A stretch of 42,672 bases of DNA from Antrihabitans cavernicola (GTDB taxonomy: Bacteria > Actinomycetota > Actinomycetes > Mycobacteriales > Mycobacteriaceae), in assembly GCF_008297975.1 (NCBI RefSeq), contig NZ_VLNY01000025.1, positions 1-42,672 of the forward strand, in the 5' to 3' direction. The notes beneath the pieces were generated by a model that worked only from the letters and a program-made list of their open reading frames with translations, ran no database searches and was not told the DNA's origin. Below, piece by piece: positions 1 through 20,578 of the stretch (position 1 is its first letter; every line of letters begins with the position of its first letter). The position numbers were made by a program, and so were the translations under genes.

Positions 1-1
1 T

Positions 2-151: not shown

Positions 152-160
152 GGGTTAATT

Positions 161-4621: not shown

Positions 4622-4625
4622 ACCC

Positions 4626-5525: not shown

Positions 5526-5526
5526 G

Positions 5527-7170: not shown

Positions 7171-7173
7171 CGA

Positions 7174-7713
7174 ATGAGCGGTTACCCAACTCTTGAGAGT
7201 TGCGACCAGTCGGACCCGAAGTCCGCTTTTCAGTGGGCTTTCGTCGCTCTGCCGTTCTCTGGCAGTACGCCGTTGATGGTTCAAGACGAAGTACGTCCGG
7301 AGTGGTCGGCACTGTTTCACGATTTGGGTTTTCGCCATCACCCAGAGTTGCAGACCAAGAAAGTGCAGATGCCTTTCCGTGGTCAGCAGAACACGATGAA
7401 CGGCGCCGTGCGCGTGGTTGGCATTGACGAACCTGACGCGGATGCGTCGGTTATTCAGGACCCGGCTGCGCTGACGGCGTTCGAGCAGGAAATGCAGCTT
7501 GAGCGGTACAGGCAGATTGGTCGCATTGGCGGCAGGGATGCGGAGTCTGACGGCGCTGCGGTTTGGGATGACTTCAACCCTGCCGATCACACGGTTTCTT
7601 ATGTGTGCGGCTATTTGCATCGCGCACCGATTGCGGTTAAGCGTCGGGTTATCGCGGCTGAGCAGTTGGGCAAGAAACGCCAAGGAATCTTGAACAGGTT
7701 TCGCGGTATCTAG
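7174..7713 (+). CDS. Minor tail-associated protein (L5 gp29-like position)
   Basis: This 179-residue protein has no signal peptide or membrane segment and contains the Trp-rich stretch FQWAFVALPF near the start. A helix-rich middle and a basic C-terminus (KKRQGILNRFRGI) follow. It lies three bases after the Gp37-like gene, in the place held by L5 gene 29, and resembles the uncharacterised actinophage family DUF2744; I recognise this only loosely. A tail-tip or baseplate role is inferred from position. Confidence 0.6.
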   Translation: MSGYPTLESCDQSDPKSAFQWAFVALPFSGSTPLMVQDEVRPEWSALFHDLGFRHHPELQTKKVQMPFRGQQNTMNGAVRVVGIDEPDADASVIQDPAALTAFEQEMQLERYRQIGRIGGRDAESDGAAVWDDFNPADHTVSYVCGYLHRAPIAVKRRVIAAEQLGKKRQGILNRFRGI

Positions 7714-7725
7714 GAAAGAGGACAT

Positions 7726-8736
7726 ATGGCGGTATTGCGCCAGAATGTAGAGAACACGAAGGCTTATCTGCGTGCGCGCAATGGTCTGCCTTACGGTTAT
7801 GGCGGCACGTTCAGCAACACGAACTTGAGCGCGTCAACGGACTGTTCCGGTCTCGCGTTTGGTGTTGTGGCCGGTTGTGTGGGTAAGCCCATGAATACGC
7901 GTTACGGATCGACTGAGGCGCTGCGCGTGGGTTCGTGGGAGTACGGCAACGCTGGCGTCAATTCGCTTGGACTTGTCCACGCGGGCAGTAATCGAAGTGC
8001 GGTTCCGGCTAATGCTGCCGTCAAGGTGGGCCTGATGCATGGCGGCGGCGGCGAGGATTCGCACGTTGCTTGCACGGTGGATGGGCTGAATGCGGAGTCG
8101 CGCGGTATGCCGGGTGGCGTAATCATCGGCTCCGTGAATCGTGGCGGGACTACGTACTGGGCGCGAGCTTGGGACGATTCGCTGTTCCACGATTTCTGGT
8201 ATCTGCCGGGGCCGATTGTGGGCGAGATTGATCCGAACGTGTTCCCGCTGCCGGACGGTTTCTATTACGGCTGGTATTCGGGGCCCGAGCAGTCGGTTAG
8301 CGGGCGAGCCGGTGAGCCGGTGCCGTGGCTGGACGGGCTTGCGCGGGCACAGGAGAAATTGGGTGTGCCGGTTACTCGGGTGTATGACGCAGCGACCAAC
8401 AAGGCGGCTATGGATTTCCAGCGCGCCAAGGGGTTTGCGTTGGTTGACGGATTCATTGGGGCTAAGACGTGGCCGCTGTTGGTTGGTGGCGGCGCAGTCG
8501 ATACGGGAGATTTGAGCGTGGCAGACGCGAACAGCATTATCACTTTCATCAAGGCGTACGTCGGGCCGATTGGCTCTGATGTGAAGGACATTCGCCAGCA
8601 GCTCACGGGCGGGCGGGACGCGGGCGACTATCGCGGGTTCCCCCAACTTGGGCATAACGCGGACGGCTCGAATAAGACGGTTGTCGATTCGATTGCCGAT
8701 CTGCGCGACCGCGTTATTGCATTGGAGGGCAAGTAA
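7726..8736 (+). CDS. Endolysin: NlpC/P60-like peptidase plus peptidoglycan-binding domain
   Basis: This 336-residue lysin A cleaves peptidoglycan at the end of the lytic cycle. The N-terminal domain (about 5-165) has the cysteine-peptidase signature STDCSG with Cys40 and a matching His112 in DSHV. Residues about 195-265 form a peptidoglycan_binding_1 type repeat (AQEKLGVPVTRVYD ... FQRAKGF ... GAKTWPLL). The C-terminal 60 residues are unassigned. It is preceded by GAAAGAGG and overlaps the holin start by one base. There is no signal peptide, so export depends on the holin. Its place between tail genes rather than at an end of the genome is noteworthy. Confidence 0.88.
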   Translation: MAVLRQNVENTKAYLRARNGLPYGYGGTFSNTNLSASTDCSGLAFGVVAGCVGKPMNTRYGSTEALRVGSWEYGNAGVNSLGLVHAGSNRSAVPANAAVKVGLMHGGGGEDSHVACTVDGLNAESRGMPGGVIIGSVNRGGTTYWARAWDDSLFHDFWYLPGPIVGEIDPNVFPLPDGFYYGWYSGPEQSVSGRAGEPVPWLDGLARAQEKLGVPVTRVYDAATNKAAMDFQRAKGFALVDGFIGAKTWPLLVGGGAVDTGDLSVADANSIITFIKAYVGPIGSDVKDIRQQLTGGRDAGDYRGFPQLGHNADGSNKTVVDSIADLRDRVIALEGK

Positions 8737-8990
8737 TGCCAACTCAGGTAGATCATTCGTGGCGGGCTACGGCTCGAACCGTGTTCGCGGTTCTCGTTGG
8801 CGTGCTGAGTGTTGTTCCAACGGTGCTGATTTCGGGCGGCTTGGACACTACGGTCCTGGGCGCGCAGTTGATTGTGATTGCCGCGACGGTTACTAAGTTG
8901 CTGGCGAATCCGTTGGTCAACGCGCTCATTGAACGCTATTTGCCTTTCCTTGCGGCGGTTCCGCCTCAGGGTGGGCGTCACTCCGTGTAG
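8736..8990 (+). CDS. Holin (two membrane segments)
   Basis: This 84-residue protein has two hydrophobic helices, about residues 14-34 and 38-56, followed by a hydrophobic stretch ending in FLAAVP and a charged tail. It has the size and layout of an actinophage holin, which would permeabilise the membrane at lysis. Its ATG overlaps the endolysin stop (TAATG), so translation is coupled. Assignment is by topology and position next to the endolysin. Confidence 0.8.
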   Translation: MPTQVDHSWRATARTVFAVLVGVLSVVPTVLISGGLDTTVLGAQLIVIAATVTKLLANPLVNALIERYLPFLAAVPPQGGRHSV

Positions 8991-8999
8991 TCGGCGCGG

Positions 9000-9407
9000 G
9001 TGCCGTCCGTGGATGCGCATCCTTGGGTTATTTGGGCCGGGGTCATAGGGGCAATCATCACGGTTGCTTCTGTGGCTTTCCCCAAGGTGCGTGATATGAG
9101 CAAGCCGGTCTTGCAATACGTTTCAGAGTTCCGCGTTCGGAAGATTGAGCGGCAGGCGCGCATTGAAGCGGCTGCGCAGGTTCTCAACGATCAGCGGGTT
9201 TCCACCCTTTCTATCCAGTTATCGGGCGTGTCCTTGCAACTGACCGCTGTGCTTGAGCAGGGCCGCATTGATGCTGTGAGGTATCAAGCCGAAATCAGCG
9301 CCATGCGTGAGCAATTGACGGAGACGCAGGAATCGCTTGCGGCTGCGATGGTCGAGCTGACGACGCTGCGCGCGGAGTTGGCGGAGTACCGGGAGGCGCA
9401 CGAATGA
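9000..9407 (+). CDS. Membrane-anchored coiled-coil lysis-cassette protein
   Basis: This 135-residue protein has one N-terminal membrane helix (about residues 8-30, WVIWAGVIGAIITVASVAF) and then a long charged helix from about 40 to the end with heptad-like spacing (QLTETQESLAAAMVELTTL), likely a coiled coil. The GTG start at 9000 was chosen because no ATG is in frame ahead of the membrane helix. Small proteins of this layout follow holins in many actinophages and are discussed as second holins or LysZ-like factors that help disrupt the mycolic envelope. That role is inferred here. Confidence 0.7.
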   Translation: MPSVDAHPWVIWAGVIGAIITVASVAFPKVRDMSKPVLQYVSEFRVRKIERQARIEAAAQVLNDQRVSTLSIQLSGVSLQLTAVLEQGRIDAVRYQAEISAMREQLTETQESLAAAMVELTTLRAELAEYREAHE

Positions 9408-10144
9408 CAACGCCCGGCGTAATCACCGGGCCGAATGGCGCCTTTACGTGGGGCGGCAGGTTCGGTCAGGACGTGACGCAGGCGGCTGTGATCAATGCGG
9501 CTACAGGTGGCGTGAAAACGAAATACTCTGAGGCGCAGGATAATTTGCACTTGGTCACGGGTTCGCTGCAAGAGCTGGGTGAGCAAATCCGCGACGGCCA
9601 GGTTGAGATGAATGACCGGCTCGATTTGCTTGAGGCGGTCGAGGGCTATTGCTCATTGTACATGAGTTACAACTGGAACGTGGCCGGGGGGCATTTCGTC
9701 AAGCTGCCGTTCGATGCAGTGCTTGGGCCTAACAAGGGCGCGGTCCTGTACAACAACGGAATCCGGTTGCAGGGCAAAGGGTTGTGGAGGTCAGACGCTC
9801 ATGTCACGTTCAAACAACCGCCTTCCGATTGGTTCACTAACGGCACCGTTGCGGCTCAGTTGTACCTGAGTGTTTGTGCGGTGGGCAACGATTCGGTTTT
9901 CAGTGAACATGAGTTTGACATCGTTATTACGCCCCAGGGCGCGGAGACTGCATCGTTTTCGCACACGTTCGTTGTGCCCACGGATGACGCGTTCTATGTT
10001 CGCGTTGGCGTGGCGCATCCGAAGGCGAGCGCATGGATTTATGGGGGCACTGCGCGTTCGTCGCTGTCGGTTAATAAGTGGGACAACGGAACCGTTCACG
10101 CGGAGGTTGTTCCGGTTGCGCCGGACGGGGGCGCTTTGAGTTGA
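9404..10144 (+). CDS. Minor tail or tail-tip protein, paralog 1
   Basis: This 246-residue protein starts MTTPGVITGPNGAF and shares this N-terminus, a central helix ending in RLDLLEA, and the C-terminal pattern GGTxRSxL ... PDGGAxx with the next gene. The N-terminal third is helical (about 20-75) and the rest is beta-rich, as in receptor-side tail proteins. The ATG lies in an ATGA overlap with the preceding stop and follows GGGAGG. It probably forms part of the adhesion tip; no catalytic motif is visible. Confidence 0.7.
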   Translation: MTTPGVITGPNGAFTWGGRFGQDVTQAAVINAATGGVKTKYSEAQDNLHLVTGSLQELGEQIRDGQVEMNDRLDLLEAVEGYCSLYMSYNWNVAGGHFVKLPFDAVLGPNKGAVLYNNGIRLQGKGLWRSDAHVTFKQPPSDWFTNGTVAAQLYLSVCAVGNDSVFSEHEFDIVITPQGAETASFSHTFVVPTDDAFYVRVGVAHPKASAWIYGGTARSSLSVNKWDNGTVHAEVVPVAPDGGALS

Positions 10145-11007
10145 CGACACCGGGCGGTGTTGCGCCGGGTGGCGCGCATCAGCAGGGCGGTAAGTTCGGT
10201 CAGGATGAGACCGAAGCGTCTGCCCGGCAAAAGATTACGCAGCCAACGCGCGACGTTTGGCAAATTGTTCAGGATGCTTGGAAGGGCCGTTTCGAGGATC
10301 AAGGCGCGGTACTTGCCGATCAGAAGGACGGGCAGGTTGCGTTAAACGGTCGGCTCGATTTGTTGCAGGCGACTGCGGGTCATGCGTGCGCGTTCATGAG
10401 TCATACGTACACGGTTCCGCCCTCAACCGTGGTGAGGATTCCGTTCAATACACAGTTGGGGCCGATGAAAAAGGCTGGCGTGGATACCAGTGCGGGCCGA
10501 TTGGTGTTGAAGGCTGGCGGGCTGTGGCGGGTCGATTCCCAAACGTGCATTGAGGGCTACACGCTCAATCAAACGATCATTCCTACTTCGACGGCACCGT
10601 TTTTCACGGTCATTACGACGTATGACGCGATTGTTCCGCACTACGTCATTCAGGTTATGCGCGCGGATGGGTCCATCTTGTCGTCGCGCGTTTTCGATGG
10701 CGTTACTGGTGTCAGCATGGGCGCTAGCGGTTTCAGTGCTGTTGCCGCCCCTAACTCTTCGCACTTCTCGCATACTTTCGTGCTGGACAACATGCCACCC
10801 GAAGATGACCCTTCGGCGCCCGAACATTGGGTGTACGTGCAGGTTTCCATGATTTACACGCCTGTCGCTACAGGCACTTTTTCCAATGCATTTTGCACGT
10901 TGAACGGTGGCACTAAGCGTTCAGCTTTGACCGCTTCGCGGTGGTCCCGCGACGTGGCGAACATTGTAAACGCTCCGACGGTTCCCGATGGTGGGGCTAT
11001 TACTTGA
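10141..11007 (+). CDS. Minor tail or tail-tip protein, paralog 2
   Basis: This 288-residue protein is a paralog of the preceding gene. It starts MTTPGGVAPGGAHQQGGKFG, has the same helix with RLDLLQA, and ends in the same GGTKRSAL ... PDGGAIT pattern. I chose the TTG at 10141, which overlaps the upstream stop as TTGA, because translation from there reproduces the paralog's N-terminus; an in-frame upstream start at 10078 would lie inside the previous gene. The middle is longer than in paralog 1 by an insert around residues 130-200. The role in host adhesion is inferred. Confidence 0.7.
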   Translation: MTTPGGVAPGGAHQQGGKFGQDETEASARQKITQPTRDVWQIVQDAWKGRFEDQGAVLADQKDGQVALNGRLDLLQATAGHACAFMSHTYTVPPSTVVRIPFNTQLGPMKKAGVDTSAGRLVLKAGGLWRVDSQTCIEGYTLNQTIIPTSTAPFFTVITTYDAIVPHYVIQVMRADGSILSSRVFDGVTGVSMGASGFSAVAAPNSSHFSHTFVLDNMPPEDDPSAPEHWVYVQVSMIYTPVATGTFSNAFCTLNGGTKRSALTASRWSRDVANIVNAPTVPDGGAIT

Positions 11008-11022
11008 TTATTAGGTGGCGCA

Positions 11023-11349
11023 ATGGCTTACAGCCCAAAGGATGCCGGGTTACCCACTCCGGTCGGCAACTTGTACGTGACGGTTCACGGCGATTTTGAA
11101 TGGACTTATCACTGGGGCGCTGGCGACTTCCCGCCCGGCGTCCAGTTGTACTACTTGGTTGGCGACACTCCCGGCGAAGAAACGCGATTTGATTACGTCA
11201 TTTCAGGCGGCACGGCGTCGATTCATATTGAGTCGGAAGCATTTTCAGGCATTGAGGACCGAACCGGGTTTTATCTCATGTTCAAAGACGGCGTAAAAGA
11301 CTTCCCGGTTCTCATGGGTCTTGTGCGGAAGGGTGTCGCGAAGCGATGA
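11023..11349 (+). CDS. Small tail protein, LtfC/Gp6 beta-sandwich-like
   Basis: This 108-residue protein has the layout of the LtfC/p132/Gp6 beta-sandwich family: an N-terminal strand before DFEWTYHW, a central PPGVQLYYLVG, a charged IHIESEAFSGI segment, and a closing hydrophobic strand ending LVRKGV. Members are found between tail-fibre genes of actinophages. It is preceded by AGGTGG and its stop overlaps the next ATG. The family match is a judgement by eye. Confidence 0.6.
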   Translation: MAYSPKDAGLPTPVGNLYVTVHGDFEWTYHWGAGDFPPGVQLYYLVGDTPGEETRFDYVISGGTASIHIESEAFSGIEDRTGFYLMFKDGVKDFPVLMGLVRKGVAKR

Positions 11350-12341
11350 GTTCGACATTGAACGGTGTTGCGCCGGGCGCGCCTGGGCTTGGTCCGGTCG
11401 AGATTCCCTCTGGCGGTTTACTTGTGCCTGTCGCGGGGCGCGATGGCGCTAGCGTTAAGGGCGATAAGGGTGACGCGGGTCCCGTTGGCCCGCAGGGCAT
11501 TCAGGGGCCAAAGGGCGACGCGGGCAGCCAGGGTTTGAAGGGTGACACGGGCGCACAGGGCGCGAAGGGTGACACGGGTACCGGCGTCGAGCTGGCGGGG
11601 TCCGTAGCGACCTATGCGGCATTGCCTGCGCCTGGGCCTACGGGAACGGCTTACGTGGTGAATGCGGACGGCTTGCTCTATGTGTCGAATGGGTCTGCGT
11701 GGCCTCCGGACGGGTCCGGCGCGCCGTTTCGCGGCGCGACTGGGCCGCAAGGCGTCAAGGGCGACAGCGGATCGCAAGGGCCTAAGGGGGATACCGGCGC
11801 GGCTGGATCGCAAGGCGTCAAGGGCGATACCGGCGCGGCTGGACCACAAGGCGTCAAGGGCGACACGGGCGCACAGGGGCCTAAGGGAGACAAGGGCGAT
11901 GCTGGTTCGGCGGGTTCGGTTGGCGCACAGGGGCCTAAGGGAGACAAGGGCGATGCTGGTTCGGCTGGTCCGGCTGGCGTGGGCGGTTCCGCCTACGACA
12001 TGAGCCTGCGCGCGTTTGGCGCGATGACTCCACGTGTTGCGGCCTCTTACGGCGACATTGCACAGTCCGTAAAGCTCCAGCGCGCTATCGGTGTGGCGTC
12101 CGTGACCTTTCGGTGCGATACGGCGGACAGTTCGGGCAACTTGGTGGTCGAGTTGCGTAAGAATGGCGCGCAGGTTGCGGGTTCGCGGGTCACGATTGCA
12201 CAGGGTTCCCAAATCGTCGGGGTGAAGGTGACCGGCCCGTGGCCGTTCGCTAAGGGCGATGTTATTGCGGCGTATGTAGTTTCGGTCGGGACTACGTCGG
12301 GCGCAGGGTTGACAATGGACGTTGAAGCGGTGGCAACGTGA
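11346..12341 (+). CDS. Collagen-like tail fibre protein
   Basis: This 331-residue protein contains long runs of Gly-X-Y triplets, at about residues 36-78 and 130-215 (for example GPKGDKGDAGSAG), which form a collagen-like triple helix. The runs are separated by a globular insert with PAPGPTGTAYVVNADGLLYV, a motif seen in phage fibre proteins. The C-terminal 115 residues form a beta-rich head domain likely used for trimerisation or binding. The ATG overlaps the upstream stop. The triplet DNA is internally repeated, so copy number may vary between strains. Confidence 0.9.
   Translation: MSSTLNGVAPGAPGLGPVEIPSGGLLVPVAGRDGASVKGDKGDAGPVGPQGIQGPKGDAGSQGLKGDTGAQGAKGDTGTGVELAGSVATYAALPAPGPTGTAYVVNADGLLYVSNGSAWPPDGSGAPFRGATGPQGVKGDSGSQGPKGDTGAAGSQGVKGDTGAAGPQGVKGDTGAQGPKGDKGDAGSAGSVGAQGPKGDKGDAGSAGPAGVGGSAYDMSLRAFGAMTPRVAASYGDIAQSVKLQRAIGVASVTFRCDTADSSGNLVVELRKNGAQVAGSRVTIAQGSQIVGVKVTGPWPFAKGDVIAAYVVSVGTTSGAGLTMDVEAVAT
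11868..11975 (+). repeat. 54-bp tandem repeat in the collagen-like fibre gene
   Basis: Two adjacent 54-bp units begin at 11868 and 11922; the first 44 bases are identical. Each unit codes for six Gly-X-Y triplets. Shorter, more diverged copies lie just upstream (about 11751-11867). Repeats of this kind change number by slippage or recombination and alter fibre length. Confidence 0.85.
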
Positions 12342-13834
12342 TCGTTCAAGCGCCTACAATCCCGATCCCTGTTTTCGTCCCTGCGGGCATTACGAAGTGG
12401 AATACTCAGCCGCTCTCGGGTTCGCCGAATTACGCGCAAATCGTCAGTTGGACTACCGATCCCGGCTCTGCGTCGGACTCGAACGGCCTTAAGCCGAATA
12501 GCGCCAGCCCTGGCACTGTGATCACGGCAAGCGTCAGTTGGTCTGGTAGTTCCGTCGTTAACTCTGCGGTTACGGTCCGGTTGTTGATTAACAACGTAGT
12601 TGTCGCGACTGGCGACACGACGACGGGCAAGAACACGCAGGTTTCGAGTTGCACCTTTACGGCTGATTTACAGCTCAGCGATGTGATTAAGGTTCAGGTG
12701 TCGTACACGGGATTTGCGCCGACTGTCAACGCGGGTTCCGGAACGTACATACGAACTAGTGCGCCTGCGTCAACGGTTGAACCTGAGGTCAATTTGCCCG
12801 CGCCAACCGGCCCGTACAGGATTGGCGCGCAAGACGTTTTCTTGACCCAAACGGGTCGGTCCGATCCGTTTGTGCCCGCGAACACGCGGCGGATTTCCAC
12901 GACGGTTTGGTATCCGACAACAGCGTCATTCGGTCGCATGGCGCGGTATCTGTCGGAGGTATCGGCCACTGAAACGACGATGGCGACGAAGGACCAAGCG
13001 ACTCATGCGTCGGGAGGTCCCGCACCTGCCGTGATGGTGGGGAAAGTCACGCATTCGTTTCTGAATGCGCCTGTGCGTACAGATTTGGGGCTGTTGCCGG
13101 TTGTGATGTACTCGCCTGGTTTGAACGTGGGCAAGGAGCACGGCACGGCGATATGTGAAGAGTTGGCGTCGTATGGGTACGTCGTGATTTCGATTGCCTG
13201 TAACTATGAGTCTCCCGCAACGGAGTTCCCTGACGCGCTGTACTTCACGGACACCCGCACGGAGACGCCCGCTATTCGTGATATGAAGCTTTATGCCCGC
13301 ATTGACGATGCCCGGTATGTGATGGACAAGCTGACTGATCCGGCTGTGTTCGGCAACGGCATTGCTGGGCTTGTTGATGCGTCCAAGGTTGGCATGATGG
13401 GTCACTCGAATGGTGGGTGGACAGCGATTGAGGTTGCGGCGCACGATGCCCGCTTGAAGTGCTGTCTCGATTATGACGGTCAGTTCACGTCGTCGGGGCA
13501 GGTCAACTATGCGTTCAACAACGGTGTGGATCAGCCGCTCATGGCGTTTATCGAGCAGGGGATTACCAGCGCTGATTGGTCGGCGTTCAAGTCGCGGATT
13601 CGCGGACCGCTGTATCAGATCGAGCTTGCGGGGTCGAAGCACTACGCGTTTACCGATTTGGTTTCGCTTGCGGATTCGAGCTTGTCGGGAACGATCACGC
13701 CCGCACGGGCGCACATTTGTTGCCGTGCGTACACGCGCGCGTTCTTTGATAAGCACTTGAAGGGGTCCGCGCAGGTGTTGCTTGACGGCCCGTCTGGTAC
13801 GTATCCAGAGGTTTCGTTCAACACTCTTGGTTAA
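12338..13834 (+). CDS. Tail fibre fused to a PAF-acetylhydrolase-like esterase
   Basis: This 498-residue protein has two parts. Residues about 1-145 are a beta-sandwich resembling the head of the collagen-like fibre. Residues about 160-498 are an alpha/beta-hydrolase of the platelet-activating-factor acetylhydrolase type: nucleophile Ser357 in GHSNGG, probable acid Asp378 in CCLDYDGQF, and His435 in GSKHYAFTD, followed by the family's C-terminal FFDKHLKG. All three catalytic residues are present. The GTG at 12338 overlaps the previous stop. As the last gene of the tail operon it is probably virion-bound and may hydrolyse an ester in the host envelope; the substrate is unknown. A LysB-type mycolyl esterase role is possible but not shown. 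Confidence 0.85.
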   Translation: MIVQAPTIPIPVFVPAGITKWNTQPLSGSPNYAQIVSWTTDPGSASDSNGLKPNSASPGTVITASVSWSGSSVVNSAVTVRLLINNVVVATGDTTTGKNTQVSSCTFTADLQLSDVIKVQVSYTGFAPTVNAGSGTYIRTSAPASTVEPEVNLPAPTGPYRIGAQDVFLTQTGRSDPFVPANTRRISTTVWYPTTASFGRMARYLSEVSATETTMATKDQATHASGGPAPAVMVGKVTHSFLNAPVRTDLGLLPVVMYSPGLNVGKEHGTAICEELASYGYVVISIACNYESPATEFPDALYFTDTRTETPAIRDMKLYARIDDARYVMDKLTDPAVFGNGIAGLVDASKVGMMGHSNGGWTAIEVAAHDARLKCCLDYDGQFTSSGQVNYAFNNGVDQPLMAFIEQGITSADWSAFKSRIRGPLYQIELAGSKHYAFTDLVSLADSSLSGTITPARAHICCRAYTRAFFDKHLKGSAQVLLDGPSGTYPEVSFNTLG

Positions 13835-13890
13835 CGCAAACTGCCCCGCTCTACCCCTTTGGTTGGGGGTGGGCGGGGCAGTTCTTTGCG
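13835..13890 (+). terminator. Hairpin ending the late operon
   Basis: A long hairpin starts directly after the esterase stop. The left arm CGCAAACTGCCCCGC pairs with GCGGGGCAGTT-TTTGCG on the right with a two-base bulge, and an inner CCCC/GGGG pairing extends the stem. A T-rich patch lies within the right arm. It probably stops transcription of the whole tail and lysis operon and may also act on the opposing reverse genes. Confidence 0.8.
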
Positions 13891-13897
13891 TTGGGGC

Positions 13898-13978
13898 CTA
13901 TGCGCCGGGGAGCCGGTTCGCGGGTAGTTGGCGGTGGAACTTGTTGCCGCAACGCAGGCATTGCTTAACTAGTGTCAT
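13898..13978 (-). CDS. 26-residue CxxC peptide
   Basis: A short reverse reading frame begins with ATG after a GAGGA ribosome site and codes for 26 residues with one CLRCG (CxxC) motif followed by a basic segment (NKFHRQLPANR). It resembles half of a zinc ribbon. A longer frame exists with starts up to 14143, but the ribosome site supports the short form. Function unknown; small zinc-binding peptides are common in actinophages. Confidence 0.4.
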   Translation of the reverse strand: MTLVKQCLRCGNKFHRQLPANRLPGA

Positions 13979-14126
13979 CGTGTCCTCATGCGAGTTGGCT
14001 GGGAACGCGCGACGTGTTGGCGAGTTGCGCGCGTGGATTCCGATGGCGCAAAGCGGGTTGGCTGTTTTACCGCTGAGCTGTAGCGGTCGAGGGAGTGTTA
14101 CCAAAGTTTTACGCGCCCTTTCGGAG

Positions 14127-14303
14127 CTATGGGTATTGGTCAAGGTTGAACAAACTTACGTCAATATCTTGGGTGTCCGCCTGGAGTTCGTCTAACCGGG
14201 CTTGCGCGTTACGTATCGTTCGGCGTAGCTCGATGGCTTCGCGTTCGTTGCGTCGTCGCCGTTGGTTGAGGGCGTGGCGGGCTTCACGGGCGGTTATCTG
14301 CAT
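14127..14303 (-). CDS. 58-residue basic coiled-coil peptide
   Basis: The protein starts MQITAREARHALNQRRRRNE and is almost entirely one long, highly charged helix, likely a coiled coil, ending NLDQYP. The ATG at 14303 was chosen because GGAAAGG lies six bases upstream; the longer in-frame start at 14384 would sit deep inside the neighbouring DNA-binding gene. It overlaps the end of that gene by 20 bases, so the two are probably co-expressed. Function unknown. Confidence 0.6.
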   Translation of the reverse strand: MQITAREARHALNQRRRRNEREAIELRRTIRNAQARLDELQADTQDIDVSLFNLDQYP

Positions 14304-14544
14304 GGGCGCCTTTCCGGCTCGCTGGGTGTTCCTGTGCCCACCAATCAAGGATTGTCTTGGGCAGCCAACCGTTGTTGCGTCCAACTCTGGCGTCGTAGGC
14401 GGGCATGAGTCCGTCGCGGTCGTATGCCTTGATCGTGTTTACGCTCAGCCCGATCAGTTTGCCTACCTCTTGCTTGGATAGGTAGTGGATCACGTTGGCG
14501 TCGCCTTTCGGATTGGGGGGCGGAATTAAGACCTTCTCCACCAT
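14284..14544 (-). CDS. AlpA/MerR-type DNA-binding protein, possible excisionase
   Basis: This 86-residue protein contains a winged helix-turn-helix of the excisionase or AlpA kind: LSKQEVGKLIGLSVNTIKAY, then DGLMPAYDARVGRNNGWL and ILDWWAQE. Such proteins in prophages serve as recombination directionality factors or as regulators. An alternative GTG start at 14493, preceded by GAAAGG, would give a 69-residue protein that begins just before the helix-turn-helix. It lies about 1 kb from the right attachment site, but no integrase is in view, so excisionase activity is only a possibility. Confidence 0.7.
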   Translation of the reverse strand: MVEKVLIPPPNPKGDANVIHYLSKQEVGKLIGLSVNTIKAYDRDGLMPAYDARVGRNNGWLPKTILDWWAQEHPASRKGAHADNRP

Positions 14545-14555
14545 TGAGTTAAGTT

Positions 14556-14571
14556 ACACCCTTACGGGTGT
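14556..14571. promoter_or_regulatory. Inverted repeat upstream of the DNA-binding gene
   Basis: ACACCC-TTAC-GGGTGT is a perfect 6-bp inverted repeat with a 4-bp spacer, 12 bp before the ATG of the AlpA-like gene. Its position suits an operator for that gene or its own autoregulation. It could also be an RNA hairpin in the leader. Confidence 0.4.
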
Positions 14572-14618
14572 TCGCGCCTGGCGCGCGACTGGGAGGACGA
14601 AGGCTTCTATACGTCCGA

Positions 14619-14723
14619 ATGGGGGGAAAGAACCGGCGCCACACGTACGGCGAGGCGAACAGTGTCACCATCCGCAACGCGGACGGCAACCCGGTTCGGC
14701 GGTACATAGCGAAGGCGGAATAA
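14619..14723 (+). CDS. 34-residue basic peptide
   Basis: A forward frame starting MGGKNRRHTYGEAN codes for 34 residues with a plausible beta segment (SVTIRNADGNPVRRYIA) and directly precedes a strong terminator. A GGAGGACGAAGG run lies about 15 bases upstream, rather far for a ribosome site, and no better start codon is in frame. Function unknown; the terminator right after its stop supports a real transcript. Confidence 0.4.
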   Translation: MGGKNRRHTYGEANSVTIRNADGNPVRRYIAKAE

Positions 14724-14727
14724 GAAA

Positions 14728-14760
14728 GAGGGGCACCCTTCACCGGGTGCCCCTCTTTTT
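14728..14760. terminator. Strong intrinsic terminator
   Basis: GAGGGGCACCC and GGGTGCCCCTC form a perfect 11-bp stem with a 6-base loop, followed by TTTTT. It lies five bases after the 34-residue forward frame. On the reverse strand the same stem is followed by a short T-rich stretch, so it probably also ends the reverse membrane-protein transcript whose stop is at 14774. Confidence 0.9.
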
Positions 14761-14773
14761 GTGTTTGGCGCGT

Positions 14774-15013
14774 CTACCGCTTAGCTGGGCGGGCGTAATG
14801 CACGGCGAGCAGAACGATTAACCCAATGGCGCCGATGACTAGGCCGCGCGCGTTGGGGGAGTCCTTGACGCACGTACCGGCTGCGCAGAGTTGCGGCGCG
14901 TTGGCGTAATCGAGGGCGTAGAACAGGATGCCTAGGGCGAGCACGGCAAAGCCAATTATGTTGGCGAACCGGAATGCTGTGTTGCGGTTGTCGAGCTGGG
15001 TTGCCGCGGTCAT
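14774..15013 (-). CDS. 79-residue two-helix membrane protein
   Basis: The protein has two hydrophobic helices (IIGFAVLALGILFYAL and GLVIGAIGLIVLLAVHY) joined by a loop with two cysteines (LCAAGTC), which may form a disulfide outside the membrane. The ATG follows AGGACG by about nine bases. It lies downstream of the phage tRNA-Lys on the same strand, with 37 bp between. Small membrane proteins at prophage ends often block superinfection; that is only a guess here. Confidence 0.75.
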   Translation of the reverse strand: MTAATQLDNRNTAFRFANIIGFAVLALGILFYALDYANAPQLCAAGTCVKDSPNARGLVIGAIGLIVLLAVHYARPAKR

Positions 15014-15049
15014 TGCTGTGCGTCCTGTTCTTGTGTTGTTGCTTTGGCG

Positions 15050-15125
15050 TGGTGCCCCCAGTAGGACTCGAACCTACGACCTGCTGATTAAAAGTCAGTA
15101 GCTCTACCAACTGAGCTATGGGGGC
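15050..15125 (-). tRNA. tRNA-Lys (TTT), complete, inside the prophage
   Basis: The reverse strand folds into a full cloverleaf: acceptor GCCCCCA pairing with TGGGGGC, D arm with GCTCAGTTGGTAGAGC, anticodon loop CTTTTAA giving TTT (Lys), T arm with GGTTCGAGTCC, and an encoded CCA at 15050-15052. It lies about 390 bp inside the prophage from the truncated tRNA-Lys at the junction and has the same anticodon. It may supply lysine tRNA if the host copy is broken by integration. Confidence 0.95.
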
Positions 15126-15167
15126 CTGGCAGGCGGTCAGCCTACCAGTCTGCCTATCCGGTGTCGC

Positions 15168-15324
15168 TCATTCGGAAACCTCGCTTATGGTGGCCTGGAT
15201 TGCTTTCAGGAGTGCCTTCGGATTCTCCCACGCGAGTTGGCCAATCACTGCGGCTTGCCCTAAGTGGTCGAGGTTATACCACTGGTCGAGTGCCTCATTT
15301 TTGCGGTCGGTTTCGGGCGCTCAT
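15168..15324 (-). pseudogene. 51-residue phage protein interrupted by a +1 frameshift
   Basis: The reverse strand starts with ATG at 15324 in an ATGA overlap with the upstream gene and reads MSARNRPQ, then reaches a stop right after a run of five A. If one A of the run (15298-15302) is skipped, reading continues through EALDQWYNLDHLGQAAVIGQ and onward to a natural stop at 15168, giving 51 residues. The continuing sequence looks like genuine protein with good codon use. The shift may be a mutation, a sequencing error in a homopolymer, or programmed slippage. Function unknown. Confidence 0.6.
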
Positions 15325-15449
15325 GCGTGCCAGCCTGCGGCCAGGAGTATCCACGTGAGTGCGTAGAACAGGCATATGTAGGCGATCAGGAATGCGGCGA
15401 CGGCGAGGCTGATTGCGGCGCGTTCCCACTTGGTCGAGTTGTCGTTCAT
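15321..15449 (-). CDS. 42-residue single-helix membrane protein
   Basis: The protein begins MNDNSTKWERAAISLAVAAF and is mostly one long hydrophobic segment (about residues 13-40, ending LTWILLAAGWHA). The ATG follows AGAGGGG by nine bases. It is the first gene of the reverse cassette at the right end of the prophage and ends overlapping the start of the next gene. Its promoter must lie in the 65 bp before the broken tRNA-Lys, or transcription enters from the host tRNA promoter. Function unknown. Confidence 0.65.
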   Translation of the reverse strand: MNDNSTKWERAAISLAVAAFLIAYICLFYALTWILLAAGWHA

Positions 15450-15475
15450 CTTGTTTACCCCTCTGCCCCACGTTT

Positions 15476-15489
15476 GCCCCATGCGGGGC
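15476..15489. promoter_or_regulatory. Short palindrome between attR and the reverse cassette
   Basis: GCCCC-ATGC-GGGGC forms a perfect 5-bp inverted repeat with a 4-bp spacer, flanked by a second TGCCCC copy 11 bp away. It lies 26 bp from the truncated tRNA-Lys. It could be a regulator site for the reverse cassette or a recombinase arm site; nothing more can be said. Confidence 0.3.
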
Positions 15490-15514
15490 TTGTTTGGGCT
15501 GGTCAGTTGGTCTA

Positions 15515-15562
15515 GACCTGCGGATTAAAAGTCCGTAGCTCTACCAACTGAGCTAAAGGGGC
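15515..15562 (-). other. Truncated tRNA-Lys (TTT) marking the right attachment site
   Basis: The reverse strand carries the first 48 bases of a tRNA-Lys: acceptor 5' strand GCCCCTT, the D arm, a complete anticodon arm with loop CTTTTAA, and the variable-loop start AGGTC. The T arm and acceptor 3' strand are missing and the sequence turns into unrelated DNA (TAGACCAACTG). Prophage genes lie on one side and chromosomal genes on the other, so this is the phage-host junction. The exact crossover point is not determined but lies within or next to these 48 bases. Confidence 0.8.
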
Positions 15563-15615
15563 GCGGCTGGACAGCCTACCGGACACCACGCAAGCCCATG
15601 AGACAGACGCAACGG

Positions 15616-16104
15616 CTAGCCGACCTGCTGGACCTCGACGGCCGATGCTGCGAGTTTCTCCGACGCTGCGCCGAAGCTCACGCTCAGATCGGCATCGGCC
15701 GTTCGCGCGGAAATCGACGCGAACGCGAGTGCCGCCACTGCGTACATCTCGGCGAGATCCCACGGGTCGGGCTGCGGACCGCGAGGCCCGACGCCAGGCG
15801 GGACCGGCCACTTGTGCGGCCACGGGATCGGTCTGCCGGGTACCGGCGTTCCGCACCAGTCCTCGATCGCCTGCTCGAGCAGGCGCGATTCTGCGCCGTC
15901 TGCTGCCGAACTCGCGGCGGCAGCGATTTGCTGTGCGACGTTGGCCGCGCCCACCTGCAGCGCGATCCTCGGTGGCAGCGGTTGCGGATTCAGCGAGACC
16001 CGATCGATGCGCGACGTGATTGCTGGACCGTGCGGAATCAGCCAATCCCACAGTTCCGGAGGGAAATTGGCGATGATGCTCAAGATCGATTGCTTGTTGT
16101 ACAT
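15616..16104 (-). CDS. Hypothetical protein with Pro-rich centre
   Basis: This 162-residue protein starts MYNKQSILSIIANFPPELWD and contains the segments LNPQPLPPR and WCGTPVPGRPIPWPHKWP. I recognise these as part of an uncharacterised actinobacterial family with Pro/Trp-rich repeats but know of no function. There is no clear signal peptide. It is the first chromosomal gene beyond the prophage and ends 54 bp before the start of the host tRNA-Lys, on the same strand. The 199 bp to the divergent SDR gene hold no recognisable site. Confidence 0.7.
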   Translation of the reverse strand: MYNKQSILSIIANFPPELWDWLIPHGPAITSRIDRVSLNPQPLPPRIALQVGAANVAQQIAAAASSAADGAESRLLEQAIEDWCGTPVPGRPIPWPHKWPVPPGVGPRGPQPDPWDLAEMYAVAALAFASISARTADADLSVSFGAASEKLAASAVEVQQVG

Positions 16105-16303
16105 TGCGACTCCTGGAGCTCGTGGACAAGGTCAGCTCATAGCGTCGGCTCCGCGTCGACATCGGGCATGAGTACGGACTACCCGATTCGGCCGCGCTCT
16201 CGGCGCGATCCGATCGAGTAGTCGCGCGATCTGCCTTCACCATTCCGGCTTCTCGGCGACCACAATGATGTGACGATCTGTTCCAGTACTTCCAGCACTT
16301 TCG

Positions 16304-17323
16304 ATGGGATCGAAATCGATGAATCCGCTCGAGCAAGTTCGGTCAGTAGTCGGCAAACCTGTCCAGGCAGTCAACAAGGCTCTCAACCGGCCGTCGTCCA
16401 CCACACCGCACGGCGTAGCCCGCCTGTTGTTCCCCAAACCGTCTTTGGAGAAAGCGCTCGCGGACAAGGTCGTGATGATCACGGGTGCGTCGTCGGGCAT
16501 CGGTAAGGCCGCGGCACTCGAGATCGGCAGCGCAGGCGGCACCGTCCTCCTCGTCGCGCGCGGTGAGGAGAAGCTGCGTGAGACGGAAGCGGAAGTGGTC
16601 GCAGCCGGCGGAACCGCGTTCGTACACCCCTGCGACCTGACCGACCTGGACGCCATCGACGCACTGGTCTCCGAGGTGATCAACAAGTACGGCCACATCG
16701 ACATCCTGGTCAACAATGCGGGTCGTTCGATTCGGCGGTCGCTGACGCTGTCCTACGACCGGTTCCACGACTTCGAGCGCACCATGCAGCTCAATTACTT
16801 TGCGCCCCTTCGCTTGATGCTCGGCCTGTTGCCGGGTATGCGCGAGCGCGGGTTCGGTCATGTCATCAACATCTCGTCCATCGGTGTACAGACCAAGGTG
16901 CCGCGCTTCGGTGCCTACATCGCGTCGAAAGCGGCACTCGACACCGTCTCCGACGCCTTCCAGGCCGAGACTCAAGACGAGGGTGTTCGCTTCACCACCG
17001 TGCACATGCCGTTGGTGCGGACGCCGATGATCGCGCCGACCACGCTGTACGACAACTTCCCGACGCTCAGTCCCGAAGAAGCCGGACACGTCATCTGCGA
17101 TGCGATCATCGAACGGCCTCGTCGCTACAGTCCGGCGTTCGGTCGGGTCGCGTCGTTCGCCGACTCGATCACGCCGGAGATCATGGACTACGTACGCAAC
17201 AAGGGGTTCAAGATGTTCGCGGACTCGGCATCCGCGTCCGCGCCCGCGCCTGCCGAAGGCGAGGAGAAGGTCTCCGGTGGCAAGAAGATCTTCGTCGATA
17301 TCACCACCGGAAACCACTGGTAG
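16304..17323 (+). CDS. SDR reductase, Rv1543-like (fatty acyl-CoA reductase type)
   Basis: This 339-residue NAD(P)-dependent short-chain dehydrogenase has the cofactor motif TGASSGIG at 60-67, NNAG, and the catalytic Tyr205/Lys209 in YIASK. The N-terminal 55 residues before the Rossmann fold and the C-terminal extension rich in Ala/Pro/Glu match the length and layout of M. tuberculosis Rv1543, annotated as a fatty acyl-CoA reductase. The next gene resembles Rv1544, so the pair is conserved. It probably reduces a lipid carbonyl or thioester; the substrate is not defined. An in-frame ATG at 16319 is an alternative start. Confidence 0.82.
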   Translation: MGSKSMNPLEQVRSVVGKPVQAVNKALNRPSSTTPHGVARLLFPKPSLEKALADKVVMITGASSGIGKAAALEIGSAGGTVLLVARGEEKLRETEAEVVAAGGTAFVHPCDLTDLDAIDALVSEVINKYGHIDILVNNAGRSIRRSLTLSYDRFHDFERTMQLNYFAPLRLMLGLLPGMRERGFGHVINISSIGVQTKVPRFGAYIASKAALDTVSDAFQAETQDEGVRFTTVHMPLVRTPMIAPTTLYDNFPTLSPEEAGHVICDAIIERPRRYSPAFGRVASFADSITPEIMDYVRNKGFKMFADSASASAPAPAEGEEKVSGGKKIFVDITTGNHW

Positions 17324-17347
17324 CAAACCGATGTCAGGAGAGCGTCG

Positions 17348-18151
17348 ATGAGTTTGCCCAACCCCACCACCGATTCGCAGGTGGTGGTCACCGGCGCGTC
17401 GTCCGGCATCGGGACCGAGTTGGCCCGCGGGTTCGCCGCTCGCGGTCACAATGTCGCGCTGGTCGCTCGACGCCGAGACCGGCTGGACAAACTCGCCGAC
17501 GAACTCCGGTCGCGCAATCGCATCAACGTCGAAACCTATCCTCGCGATCTGGGTGATGCGGCACAACGGAAGTCGCTGGTCGACCAGTTGCGGCAGAGTG
17601 TGCGTCGAGTGTCCGGCCTGTGCAACTGCGCAGGATTCGGTACTGCCGGAACGTTTGCCGAGCTTCCTGTCGATCGTGAGCTGGATCAGATCGAGCTGAA
17701 CGTCACGGCGATCGTCGATTTGACGCATGCCTTCGTCGGCTCGATGGTGGAGCACGGTCGCGGCGCAATCCTCAACGTCGCATCCGTCGCCGCCTTCCAG
17801 CCGATTCCGGGACTGGCAACCTATTCGGCGACAAAGGCATTCGTGCAAACCTTCTCCGAGTCGGTGCACGAGGAACTGCGGGGGACAGGCGTGTCGTGCA
17901 CCGTGGTCAGCCCAGGTCCGGTACAGACCGAGTGGGCCGATATCGCGAATGCGCAAGCGGTGATGGTGGGTCCGACGCAAATGGACGCCGAAGATGTTGC
18001 TGAAGCTGCCATCTCGGGCATGGAGAACGGGAAGCGCACCGTCGTACCCGGTTTGGTGCCCAAGGCAATGACATTGGGTGGTCGCTACGCGCCGCGTACG
18101 CTGCTACTTCCGGCGTTGAGTATCGGACGGCGCGTTCGTAAGGGACGCTGA
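17348..18151 (+). CDS. SDR oxidoreductase, Rv1544-like
   Basis: This 267-residue short-chain dehydrogenase has TGASSGIG at 15-22, the motif NCAG in place of NNAG, and Tyr159/Lys163 in YSATK. Length and position next to the preceding SDR match M. tuberculosis Rv1544, a putative ketoacyl reductase. The ATG follows CAGGAGAGCG, 24 bp after the upstream stop, so the two SDRs are probably one operon with the CorA-like gene five bases downstream. The C-terminus is basic (RRVRKGR). Lipid substrate is inferred. Confidence 0.82.
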   Translation: MSLPNPTTDSQVVVTGASSGIGTELARGFAARGHNVALVARRRDRLDKLADELRSRNRINVETYPRDLGDAAQRKSLVDQLRQSVRRVSGLCNCAGFGTAGTFAELPVDRELDQIELNVTAIVDLTHAFVGSMVEHGRGAILNVASVAAFQPIPGLATYSATKAFVQTFSESVHEELRGTGVSCTVVSPGPVQTEWADIANAQAVMVGPTQMDAEDVAEAAISGMENGKRTVVPGLVPKAMTLGGRYAPRTLLLPALSIGRRVRKGR

Positions 18152-18155
18152 GGGA

Positions 18156-19175
18156 GTGGCTGCCCCGTCGGTGTCGTGTGAACTCAACAACCGTGTCTAC
18201 CGAGGCGATGCCTTGGTGGCGCACAATGTTTCGCTCGACGAGCTGACCGAGTTGCGACACGACGATTCGCTGGTGGTGTGGTTCGACCTGCTCGCGCCGT
18301 CGAGCGACGACTTGAAGAACCTCGGCCCTTTGCTCGGCGGTCAGGTGGAGTTGCATCGATTGGCGATCGAGTCGGCGTTGTCGTCGCGGAGCCGGCCTCG
18401 GCTGGTGCGGTTTGCGGGTCACAAGATGCTGCATACGCGATCGGCACGGCTCGCCGACGAGGATCTCGAGCGCGACGATCGAATTCTCACCACCGACATC
18501 ACGCTGTTCATCCTCGATCGGACGCTGGTGACGATCCGGTCCGACGACGGCTTTCCACTCGCTCCTGTACTGGAAGCGTGGGACGACAACGCCGATCTGG
18601 CCGGGCACGGCGTGCCATTTCTGCTGCACGGACTGCTCGACAAGGTGGTCAGCGGCTATCTCGATGTGCTCGACACGCTCGACGAGCGGATCAGCGATCT
18701 GGAAGACGAATTGCTCGAGTCGTCGGCCCCTATCCGTGTCATCCAGCGGGGTACCTTCACGCAGCGTCGCGCGGTGACCGGTTTGTCGCGAATCGTTCTG
18801 CCGATGAACGAAGTGTTCGGAACTCTCGTCCGCAGCGGCGCGCACCCCAACGATTCGGACATGGTGCCCTACTACCAGGACGTTTACGACCACGCGTTGC
18901 GGGCGACCGAGCGCATCGACGGACTCCGCGACACGATCGAATCGATCCTGTCGACCGGGCTGGCGATGCAGGGTAATTCGTTGAATGAAACAATGAAGAA
19001 GCTCACCGCGTGGGCCGCGATCATTGCGGTACCGACGGGCGTCACTGGCTACTTCGGCCAGAATGTCCCTTTTCCGGGATACGACGCGCGTCTAGGATTT
19101 TGGCTCAGCACGGTGCTACTGCTTGGACTCGGGTTCGGCCTATGGTTGAGTTTCAAGCGGCGCGATTGGCTGTAG
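18156..19175 (+). CDS. CorA-like divalent cation transporter with GQN motif
   Basis: This 339-residue protein has the CorA layout: an N-terminal alpha/beta cytoplasmic domain, a long helical stalk (about 150-280), and two C-terminal membrane helices (about 280-300 and 312-330) with a basic end KRRDWL. The loop that normally reads GMN is YFGQN here, with Gly301-Gln302-Asn303. The replacement is seen in some actinobacterial CorA/ZntB relatives, so selectivity for Mg, Zn or another ion is open. The GTG start lies five bases after the SDR stop, suggesting one transcript. Confidence 0.85.
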   Translation: MAAPSVSCELNNRVYRGDALVAHNVSLDELTELRHDDSLVVWFDLLAPSSDDLKNLGPLLGGQVELHRLAIESALSSRSRPRLVRFAGHKMLHTRSARLADEDLERDDRILTTDITLFILDRTLVTIRSDDGFPLAPVLEAWDDNADLAGHGVPFLLHGLLDKVVSGYLDVLDTLDERISDLEDELLESSAPIRVIQRGTFTQRRAVTGLSRIVLPMNEVFGTLVRSGAHPNDSDMVPYYQDVYDHALRATERIDGLRDTIESILSTGLAMQGNSLNETMKKLTAWAAIIAVPTGVTGYFGQNVPFPGYDARLGFWLSTVLLLGLGFGLWLSFKRRDWL

Positions 19176-19276
19176 GCCAATTGCGGCTCGACCGACATAT
19201 GATGCCGCAGGAGGCAGGAACCGCGTTGTAGCAGAATGCCCGGGTGCGCACCCCCTGCAGCGCACCCAGGCACCCC

Positions 19277-19298
19277 AAATATACCACTCGGTGTGTTT
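19277..19298. promoter_or_regulatory. Possible autoregulatory element for the butyrolactone-receptor gene
   Basis: Two 11-bp half sites, AAATATACCAC and TCGGTGTGTTT, match as an inverted repeat at 7 of 11 positions. The AxACC/GGTxTxT character resembles the ARE sites bound by ArpA/ScbR-type receptors. It lies about 150 bp before the TetR start. The rest of the 274-bp gap (19,176-19,449) shows no gene. Confidence 0.35.
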
Positions 19299-19449
19299 TC
19301 GGTTTTGTCACCCAGCGTACGTATCGCGAGCTCGCGGCGGTGCCCGTAACCTGGTGATTTCCCCGTGAACCGCCACGATGACGTCGCCGCGTTGCACGAG
19401 TCCTCTCGTACTACGTAAAGGGCGTCAGGGCTTCGGAGGCGATTGAGGC

Positions 19450-20115
19450 ATGGCACGGCAGCAAGAGCGGGCCCGCCGTACCCGCGCGGCGATCATCGGA
19501 TCGGCCGCTGTCGAGTTCGGCAAGAGCGGGTACTCCGCTGCGTCCTTGAATCGAATTCTGGAAGGGTCGCATGCCACCAAGGGTGCGATGTATTTCCACT
19601 TCGACTCGAAGGAAGATCTTGCGCGGGCTGTCATGGAGACGGCGCTGGAGCGCTACGCGCAGACCACCGATCGGTGGATGGCGCGTGGCGAGCTGGAACC
19701 CTTCGAGATTCTCCACGGCATGCTCGACGAGCTGGCTCTTCGTTTTCAGACCGACGCGGTTGTGCAAGCCGAGTTCCGACTGATCATCGAGCCCGAGTTC
19801 TACAGCGATGTGCAGTCCGGTGGCGGCAGCGTGTGGGGCAAGGCGACGTACGTCCTCGCCACGCGTGCCAAGGAGCGCGGAATGCTGCGAGCCGACACGG
19901 ATCCCGAGAAGTTCACGCGCATGCTTGCCGCGGTGACGGCGGGCCAGCGCTATATGACGGATCTGCTGTCCGAACGCGACGACCTTCGCTCCCGCTTCGA
20001 AGAGGGCTTCGGCGTGATCCTCGAGGCCATGGCGACACCCGAATGGTTGGAGCGATGGAAGCGCACCGGATGGCAGTTCGGAGCTCGCATCGAAGACGTC
20101 GATACAGGCTCCTAG
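19450..20115 (+). CDS. TetR regulator of the gamma-butyrolactone receptor type (ScbR/ArpA-like)
   Basis: This 221-residue protein has an N-terminal TetR helix-turn-helix (RTRAAIIGSAAVEFGKSGYS ... GAMYFHFDSKEDLARAV). The phrases RARRTR near the start, YSAASLNRILEGS and KGAMYFHF are typical of receptors that bind gamma-butyrolactone signals. The C-terminal ligand domain includes the Trp-containing stretch GSVWGKATYVLATRAKERG. Related receptors control quorum-like signalling and secondary metabolism, and a gbl system is known in Rhodococcus jostii. No synthase gene lies nearby. The ATG at 19450 follows a GGAGGCGATTGAGGC leader. Confidence 0.78.
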   Translation: MARQQERARRTRAAIIGSAAVEFGKSGYSAASLNRILEGSHATKGAMYFHFDSKEDLARAVMETALERYAQTTDRWMARGELEPFEILHGMLDELALRFQTDAVVQAEFRLIIEPEFYSDVQSGGGSVWGKATYVLATRAKERGMLRADTDPEKFTRMLAAVTAGQRYMTDLLSERDDLRSRFEEGFGVILEAMATPEWLERWKRTGWQFGARIEDVDTGS

Positions 20116-20224
20116 CCAGCGAATTTGGGAATTCGTTCACGGGTGTCTTAAGCTATCCCAGCTCCCAACGGAACGCCGTTGGAGGTACTGGTCGGAGTGC
20201 TGAGATAGCGTAAGTACACGGCAG

Positions 20225-20297
20225 GCCCCCTTCGTCTAGCGGCCTAGGACGCCGCCCTTTCAAGGCGGTAGCGCGGGTTCGAATCCCGTAGGGGGTA
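20225..20297 (+). tRNA. tRNA-Glu (TTC)
   Basis: A full cloverleaf with acceptor GCCCCCT pairing with AGGGGGT, D arm TCGTCTAGCGGCCTAGGA, anticodon loop CTTTCAA giving TTC, and T arm GGGTTCGAATCCC. It is the first of three tRNAs in the order Glu-Asp-Phe common in Mycobacteriales. CCA is not encoded. Confidence 0.97.
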
Positions 20298-20370
20298 CGC
20301 ACGGCCGGTTTTACAGTTTTACAGAGCTCGAAAAAGAAGTTCGAAACACAGCTTTGCAGCAACAACGCAA

Positions 20371-20444
20371 GGCCCTGTGGCGCAGTTGGTTAGCGCGCCG
20401 CCCTGTCACGGCGGAGGTCGCGGGTTCGAGTCCCGTCAGGGTCG
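20371..20444 (+). tRNA. tRNA-Asp (GTC)
   Basis: The acceptor GGCCCTG pairs with CAGGGTC, the anticodon loop CTGTCAC gives GTC, and the T arm reads GGGTTCGAGTCCC. It follows tRNA-Glu by 73 bp and is probably co-transcribed with it. Confidence 0.97.
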
Positions 20445-20501
20445 CAAATCTCGTTGGCAACAACGATTTATGCGATTGGCATTGAAGTTCGGGTGCCGTC
20501 C

Positions 20502-20578
20502 GGCCAGGTAGCTCAGTTGGTACGAGCGTCCGCCTGAAAAGCGGAAGGTCGCCGGTTCGATCCCGGCCCTGGCCACCA
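20502..20578 (+). tRNA. tRNA-Phe (GAA)
   Basis: The acceptor GGCCAGG pairs with CCTGGCC, the anticodon loop CTGAAAA gives GAA, the T arm reads CGGTTCGATCCCG, and CCA is encoded at 20576-20578. It is the last tRNA of the cluster. The following 188 bp hold no recognisable gene. Confidence 0.97.

Follow-up and report, generated by a model that had tools for sequence, protein, structure and literature searches.

A prophage that splits the host tRNA-Lys(TTT) gene and carries a complete copy points strongly to tRNA-dependent lysogeny in Antrihabitans cavernicola

Results

A host tRNA-Lys gene split at the prophage junction

The window analyzed here is the whole of contig C18 (42,672 nucleotides) from the draft genome of Antrihabitans cavernicola, which comprises 5.66 Mb in 41 contigs and is listed as 100% complete. 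The features at issue, together with an integrase gene on contig C39 of the same genome, are as follows.

1-80, minus strand: one end of the repeated insertion sequence at which the assembly is interrupted within the prophage
1-15535: prophage portion on this contig, with tape measure, minor tail, and endolysin-like genes as far as the junction; the remainder is C39:1-28188
15050-15125, minus strand: complete prophage tRNA-Lys(TTT) with CCA encoded (ARAGORN, ttt; Rfam, 74.5 bits)
15139-15144, minus strand: -10-like box TAGGCT, 13 nt upstream of the prophage tRNA, a putative promoter recognized by eye
15464-15481, minus strand: a pair of TGGGGCA repeats spaced 11 bp apart, which may be arm-type integrase sites for this side of attP
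15515-15535, minus strand: common core of 21 bp, lying within the host tRNA's anticodon arm, with an exact copy at C39:28168-28188
15515-15562, minus strand: 5' part (48 nt) of the host tRNA-Lys(TTT) at the prophage junction
15563-20578: host 5' flank to a tRNA-Glu/Asp/Phe cluster; it is colinear with the region 5' of the intact tRNA-Lys in a relative (G002)
C39:26889-27992: tyrosine integrase, 367 aa, without stops (PF00589, 2.6e-22; phrog_1, 6.5e-62)

The original prediction held that the host tRNA-Lys is cut after base 48 and that a complete tRNA-Lys with the same anticodon lies about 390 bp inside the prophage on the same strand, and both points were borne out. Positions 15562 to 15515 of the minus strand are identical in 48 of 48 nucleotides to the start of the intact tRNA-Lys of G002, and past base 48 the window sequence departs from tRNA-Lys into phage DNA. 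The complete prophage copy called by ARAGORN is separated from the host fragment by 389 bp and differs from the rejoined host gene at 10 of 74 positions, CCA left out. A longer stretch (15475-15562) scores 38.2 bits in Rfam, yet ARAGORN calls no tRNA there; we rejected it as a real tRNA and regard it as the host fragment run on into phage DNA. Boxes like TAGGCT were seen by eye upstream of most of the tRNA-Lys genes compared, and none was seen by eye at the matching place ahead of the tRNA-Lys copies of another genome, G010.

The missing 3' half of the host tRNA-Lys is located at C39:28168-28214, where it adjoins the uninterrupted tyrosine integrase. Searching the genome for the 21-base core with up to three mismatches returned three places, namely, the window junction, the phage tRNA (two mismatches), and the exact copy on C39. 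At this last place, the host tRNA 3' half followed by host genes lies on one side, and 175 bp followed by the end of the integrase lies on the other. When the two host flanks are joined, ARAGORN calls a normal tRNA-Lys(ttt); attB is inside the host tRNA gene, and the tRNA-Lys is split across the two junctions. No tRNA was found by ARAGORN in attL, attR, or the deduced attP, and the 21-bp core is too short for a tRNA to be rebuilt at attL or attR.

Structure of the prophage

The prophage consists of C39:28188-1 followed by C18:1-15535, about 43.7 kb without the gap. Proteins matching those of Gordonia phage TinaLin are found on both contigs, including a helicase (56%), an HNH endonuclease (57%), a major tail protein (28%), and the integrase (62%) on C39, and an endolysin (77% over 172 aa) and a weakly matching tape-measure protein on C18. 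The ends of C39 and C18 show no overlap. Other contigs also end in the first 80 bp of C18 or of C39, and contig C12 has the two 80-bp sequences at 94-97% identity, about 0.9 kb or less apart. One multicopy insertion sequence of about 0.9 kb therefore lies between the major-tail and tape-measure genes; it interrupts the assembly at several contig ends and may damage the prophage. A search of phage DNA with positions 13900-15535 gave at most 6% query coverage among the 20 matches listed, all of them at tRNA-Lys.

Two further observations concern the prophage. A gene on its side of the window (12338-13834) matches a platelet-activating-factor acetylhydrolase-type esterase (PF03403, 7.2e-16) and has no PHROG match. 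In addition, an IMG/VR record of 27,992 bases (IMGVR_UViG_2906964848_000002) has an identical integrase, and its length equals the distance from C39:1 to the integrase stop codon, so that the att core is cut off.

An intact site in a relative

The genus was represented by four genomes, this one included. In G002, the tRNA-Lys is intact and identical to the joined sequence of the split halves. Of the two flanks of the G002 tRNA-Lys, one matches the host DNA of C18 and the other that of C39, with 69-82% identity in the aligned blocks; thus, C18 and C39 represent two sides of one locus. In the other two genomes, G001 and G003, the tRNA-Lys is split as in this genome and accompanied by an element-borne tRNA-Lys, and the two halves in G001 are on one contig.

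The only complete tRNA-Lys(TTT) found is in the prophage

Rfam gave 48 tRNA places in the genome, one of them the host fragment and the other 47 complete tRNAs, whose types were assigned with ARAGORN (43 + 4). Among the complete tRNAs, there is one Lys(TTT), the prophage copy, and one Lys(CTT); no other intact tRNA-Lys(TTT) was found in the draft genome by Rfam and ARAGORN. The codon AAA is present in 11 of the 17 host ORFs examined on C18 and in 13 of 20 on C39. Under general decoding rules, AAA should not be read by a CUU anticodon. With one Lys(TTT) gene, a CUU anticodon that does not read AAA, and AAA codons in host ORFs, the lysogen would be expected to depend on the phage tRNA-Lys for its AAA codons. 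The prophage part of C39 also has a second tRNA-Trp(CCA) (C39:12205-12280; Rfam, 49.3 bits), the other tRNA-Trp being on contig C5.

Relatives of the integrase

Integrase relatives at an E value of 1e-40 or better were found in 22 of 401 genomes of the family. Five of these 22 loci, those of this prophage, G001, G003, G364, and G077, are nonrestoring and have their own tRNA-Lys. Ten adjoin a tRNA 3' half that has been displaced (BLAST confirmed three of these, and the others were recognized by eye from the T-arm motif), three adjoin an intact tRNA, and four were assigned to no class.

A tree was built from 15 of the 22 family integrases (leaving out G263, G343, G235, G347, G362, G293, and G360), six phage integrases, and the integrase of mycobacteriophage Fionnbharth, that of LeBron having been dropped. 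The rows for G010 and MinS1 were labeled as canonical from a nearby tRNA or 3' half. All eight tRNA-dependent integrases, namely, the five listed above and those of TinaLin, Vendetta, and Catfish, lie on one side of a branch with a support of 89/93, which is short of the program's firm mark. A single origin of the tRNA-dependent integrases is therefore likely on the evidence of this branch. The integrase of this prophage is 65% identical to that of G001. It shows no close similarity to the integrase phamily of Fionnbharth and LeBron, with 24% identity to each, and for the Gaia integrase, the five best matches in the set show 27-29% identity. A split tRNA-Lys was also observed in G010 (G010:C1:25842-67629), accompanied by its own tRNA-Lys, which lies close to the 3' half at a distance of 41.7 kb; the related integrase is located elsewhere in that genome, and a different integrase is probably used at the split tRNA-Lys.

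Gordonia phages with the same arrangement

Fourteen phage records with a 60-62% identical integrase represent nine distinct Gordonia phages, among them Vendetta, Splinter, TinaLin, Catfish, and kin (Ruthgordonvirinae). Judged from the phage records only, all nine have one tRNA-Lys(TTT) in the stretch examined and a short core about 110 bp ahead of it; since the nine phages are kin, they do not represent nine independent events. While these features resemble those of our prophage, the distance from att to the integrase is about 1.7-2.9 kb in Vendetta, Splinter, TinaLin, Catfish, and kin, compared with 175 bp here. The tRNA-Lys(TTT) genes of Huffy and DinoDaryn (L204:7285-7358 and L207:7285-7358) are ARAGORN calls without annotation in the records. 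Gsput1, Dardanus, and Schmidt, which are portal-protein relatives without this integrase, have no tRNA in the 12-14 kb examined. For Vendetta and Splinter, PMC5559632 gives sites in both tRNA-Lys and tRNA-Arg without deciding between them, and Vendetta, TinaLin, and Catfish are not named in PMC10865867.

Elements beyond phages

In G001, the tRNA-Lys halves are 120 kb apart on one contig (G001:C1:1511741-1632083), and the intervening element has its own tRNA-Lys, which is located between the core and the integrase and reads in the reverse direction. Among 20 of its 113 ORFs of at least 100 aa, in which conjugation genes were sought, are a TrwC relaxase with a helicase domain (L098:13228-19155; PF08751, 1.4e-79) and a TraG/TraD-type coupling protein (L099:12060-13868; PF12696, 9.7e-24). 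Other genes of the element encode an Mce-type transporter, a P450, and a transposase. When 15 TinaLin proteins and a Catfish fragment were compared with the element, the integrase was the only match. These genes suggest that the 120-kb element of G001 is probably conjugative and uses tRNA-dependent integration.

G003 is arranged like G001 at the core, and no conjugation genes were seen among 10 chosen ORFs. For the 22.4-kb element of G364, 11 ORFs were scanned for conjugation genes and no element class was assigned. Neither of two G001 conjugation proteins had a tblastn match in the pieces of G003 or G364 examined. G077 has a 42.4-kb prophage, as judged by portal, capsid, and tail matches. About 45 kb past its first displaced tRNA-Lys 3' half is a second one (G077:C1:1426978-1427025), which suggests a second element in tandem.

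Repeats around the attachment core

In this prophage, copies of TGGGGCA are located at -170, -148, and -136 on one side of the core and at +54 and +65 on the other. The corresponding offsets, accurate to about 3 bp between records, are -169, -147, -135, +74, and +85 in TinaLin and Vendetta, nearly equal to these in Catfish, and -167, -147, -135, +75, and +86 in G077. On the far side of the core, G364 has copies at -171 and -138, and an exact repeat is absent in G001 and G003. The 7-mer is frequent, with 19 copies in the 43.7 kb (including the five at the att site), so the argument rests on shared spacing, which is 22/12 bp and 11 bp in this prophage and in the three Gordonia phages examined (TinaLin, Vendetta, and Catfish). 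We consider these repeats to be putative arm-type integrase sites.

A possible takeover of the native tRNA-Lys in genus g22

In another genus, g22, 24 of 118 genomes have the very tRNA-Lys sequence found in TinaLin, Vendetta, and the G364 element. For this count, each tRNA-Lys was the only match in its genome at an E value of 1e-12, and at most seven candidates were scored per genome. An integrase lies beside the element-type tRNA-Lys in six of the 24 (one a short piece). Six others, at L190:8450-8523 (G368), L209, L214, L218, L223, and L226, have an inverted tRNA-Lys with both flanks of the native locus kept and no integrase within 1.5 kb, and one more is inverted as judged by one flank. The remaining 11 are in native orientation (nine by both flanks and two by one). 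The bases CCGA precede all seven inverted copies and four of the six with an integrase; CGC precedes all 11 native ones. In G368, a native-type tRNA-Lys query finds no halves, and the tRNA-Lys with 46 bp upstream is 92% identical over 124 bp to the G364 element. The inverted copies are possibly scars of a vanished element, reflecting a permanent takeover of the host gene. Against this, the element may have taken its tRNA from the 11 genomes in native orientation, and a single event may account for all six scars.

Discussion

We consider it very probable that this is a case of tRNA-dependent lysogeny, in which a prophage of about 43.7 kb split the single host tRNA-Lys(TTT) and the lysogen lives on the phage copy. 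A temperate siphovirus-like phage would have used its own tyrosine integrase to insert into the anticodon arm of the sole host tRNA-Lys(TTT). The attP and attB sites would have 21 bp in common and the phage att site would be without the tRNA 3' half, so that no tRNA would be encoded at either junction. The phage tRNA-Lys(TTT), 389 bp from the core, would then serve the AAA codons of the lysogen, and it is predicted to be expressed from its own promoter, charged, and needed. Two points temper this reading. The core of 21 bp is longer than the published 8-17 bp (passages of PMC10865867), which counts against tRNA-dependent lysogeny, and the prophage lies on two contigs of a draft assembly broken by a repeated insertion sequence.

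Two readings had been offered in the original prediction, and it is the first, in which the phage breaks the host tRNA and supplies its own, that is supported by the split gene and by the phage-borne position of the sole complete Lys(TTT). The second reading, in which duplication of the core leaves a rebuilt full tRNA at the left end, does not agree with that end, which consists of the 21-bp core and the host 3' half with no tRNA called by ARAGORN. It is barely conceivable that integration was canonical, a phage-carried 3' half restoring the host gene at one end: same-family integrases elsewhere mostly look canonical (10 of 22 by a 3' half and 3 of 22 by an intact tRNA), but neither junction nor the deduced attP gives a tRNA and the assembly has no second complete Lys(TTT). 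The draft state of the assembly, the division of the prophage between two contigs, and the many phages with tRNA-Lys genes unconnected with integration could be taken to mean that the host fragment is an old relic or an assembly artifact and the prophage tRNA-Lys an unrelated lytic-cycle tRNA. This is extremely unlikely, as the junctions lie about 15.5 and 28 kb from the contig breaks, the core is exact at both ends, and two congeners (G001 and G003) are split at the same locus with an element-borne tRNA-Lys. We rejected a relic because the gene is intact with colinear flanks in G002, a relative in which the same truncated tRNA would have spoken against the first reading, and an artifact because G001 and G003 are split likewise.

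We also judge it very unlikely that the split is real and the phage tRNA dispensable, with Lys(CTT) or an undetected gene covering AAA. The genome does have one Lys(CTT) gene, but its CUU anticodon is, as general knowledge, not expected to read AAA. In the published system, moreover, loss of the phage tRNA gave clear plaques, according to passages of PMC10865867.

With tRNA-dependent lysogeny as the preferred reading, our prophage joins, as far as its sequence indicates, a phenomenon that is already known, and does so with another integrase group. Williams reportedly described an anticodon-loop sublocation class of integration sites. In passages of PMC10865867 (2024), anticodon-loop crossover is described as common for mycobacteriophage att sites, and the location of the crossover, which the original prediction had called atypical, is thus not odd in itself; the unusual feature is the lack of a phage-carried 3' half for restoration. 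The same passages demonstrate tRNA-dependent lysogeny with mutants, the cases including mycobacteriophages Fionnbharth (K4) and LeBron (L1) and Gordonia phages BrutonGaster, OneUp, and Mollymur. Those systems, as described there, share with ours a tyrosine integrase, an attB in a host tRNA (often tRNA-Lys-TTT), a short core, no rebuilt tRNA, and a phage tRNA of the same isotype. They differ in the integrase (24% to Fionnbharth and LeBron), in the core length given above, and in involving isolated phages, whereas ours is a resident prophage recognized by sequence analysis.

ICEMh1 (in the passage of PMC6861422 drawn on) and the K8 phage Boilgate (in that of PMC10865867) likewise involve a tyrosine-integrase crossover in the tRNA 3' half or anticodon region, but the element's tRNA 3' part rebuilds one working tRNA there and none is rebuilt here. 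At neither of our junctions was a tRNA found such as canonical tRNA-restoring integration leaves. In phage-related sequences of Sinorhizobium meliloti, an alphaproteobacterium unlike our host, a host tRNA is inactivated by integration and an isoacceptor comes from the element; the Sinorhizobium case, in which a phage-borne tRNA takes the place of an inactivated one, is discussed in a passage of PMC11476347. Within the open-licence PubMed Central literature, we found no report of this integrase group, of a conjugative carrier, or of scars, and no recognized equivalent element or island bringing its own replacement tRNA.

Taken jointly, the relatives incline us slightly toward a broader reading, in which a further integrase group uses tRNA-dependent integration, the module of integrase, att site, and tRNA-Lys is common to phages and conjugative elements (the 120 kb of G001), and the element tRNA can outlive the element, permanently replacing the single tRNA-Lys of the host. 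Our confidence in this was lowered because of the Sinorhizobium passage and the g22 genomes in native orientation.

A resident prophage thus owns the only complete gene found for an apparently indispensable tRNA, with an integrase group that lies outside the two groups treated in the 2024 paper (PMC10865867). If the tRNA is needed, prophage loss other than by clean excision should be lethal. In light of the relatives, two questions become testable: do conjugative elements likewise rely on a tRNA that they bring with them, and is turnover among single-copy tRNA genes driven by mobile elements?
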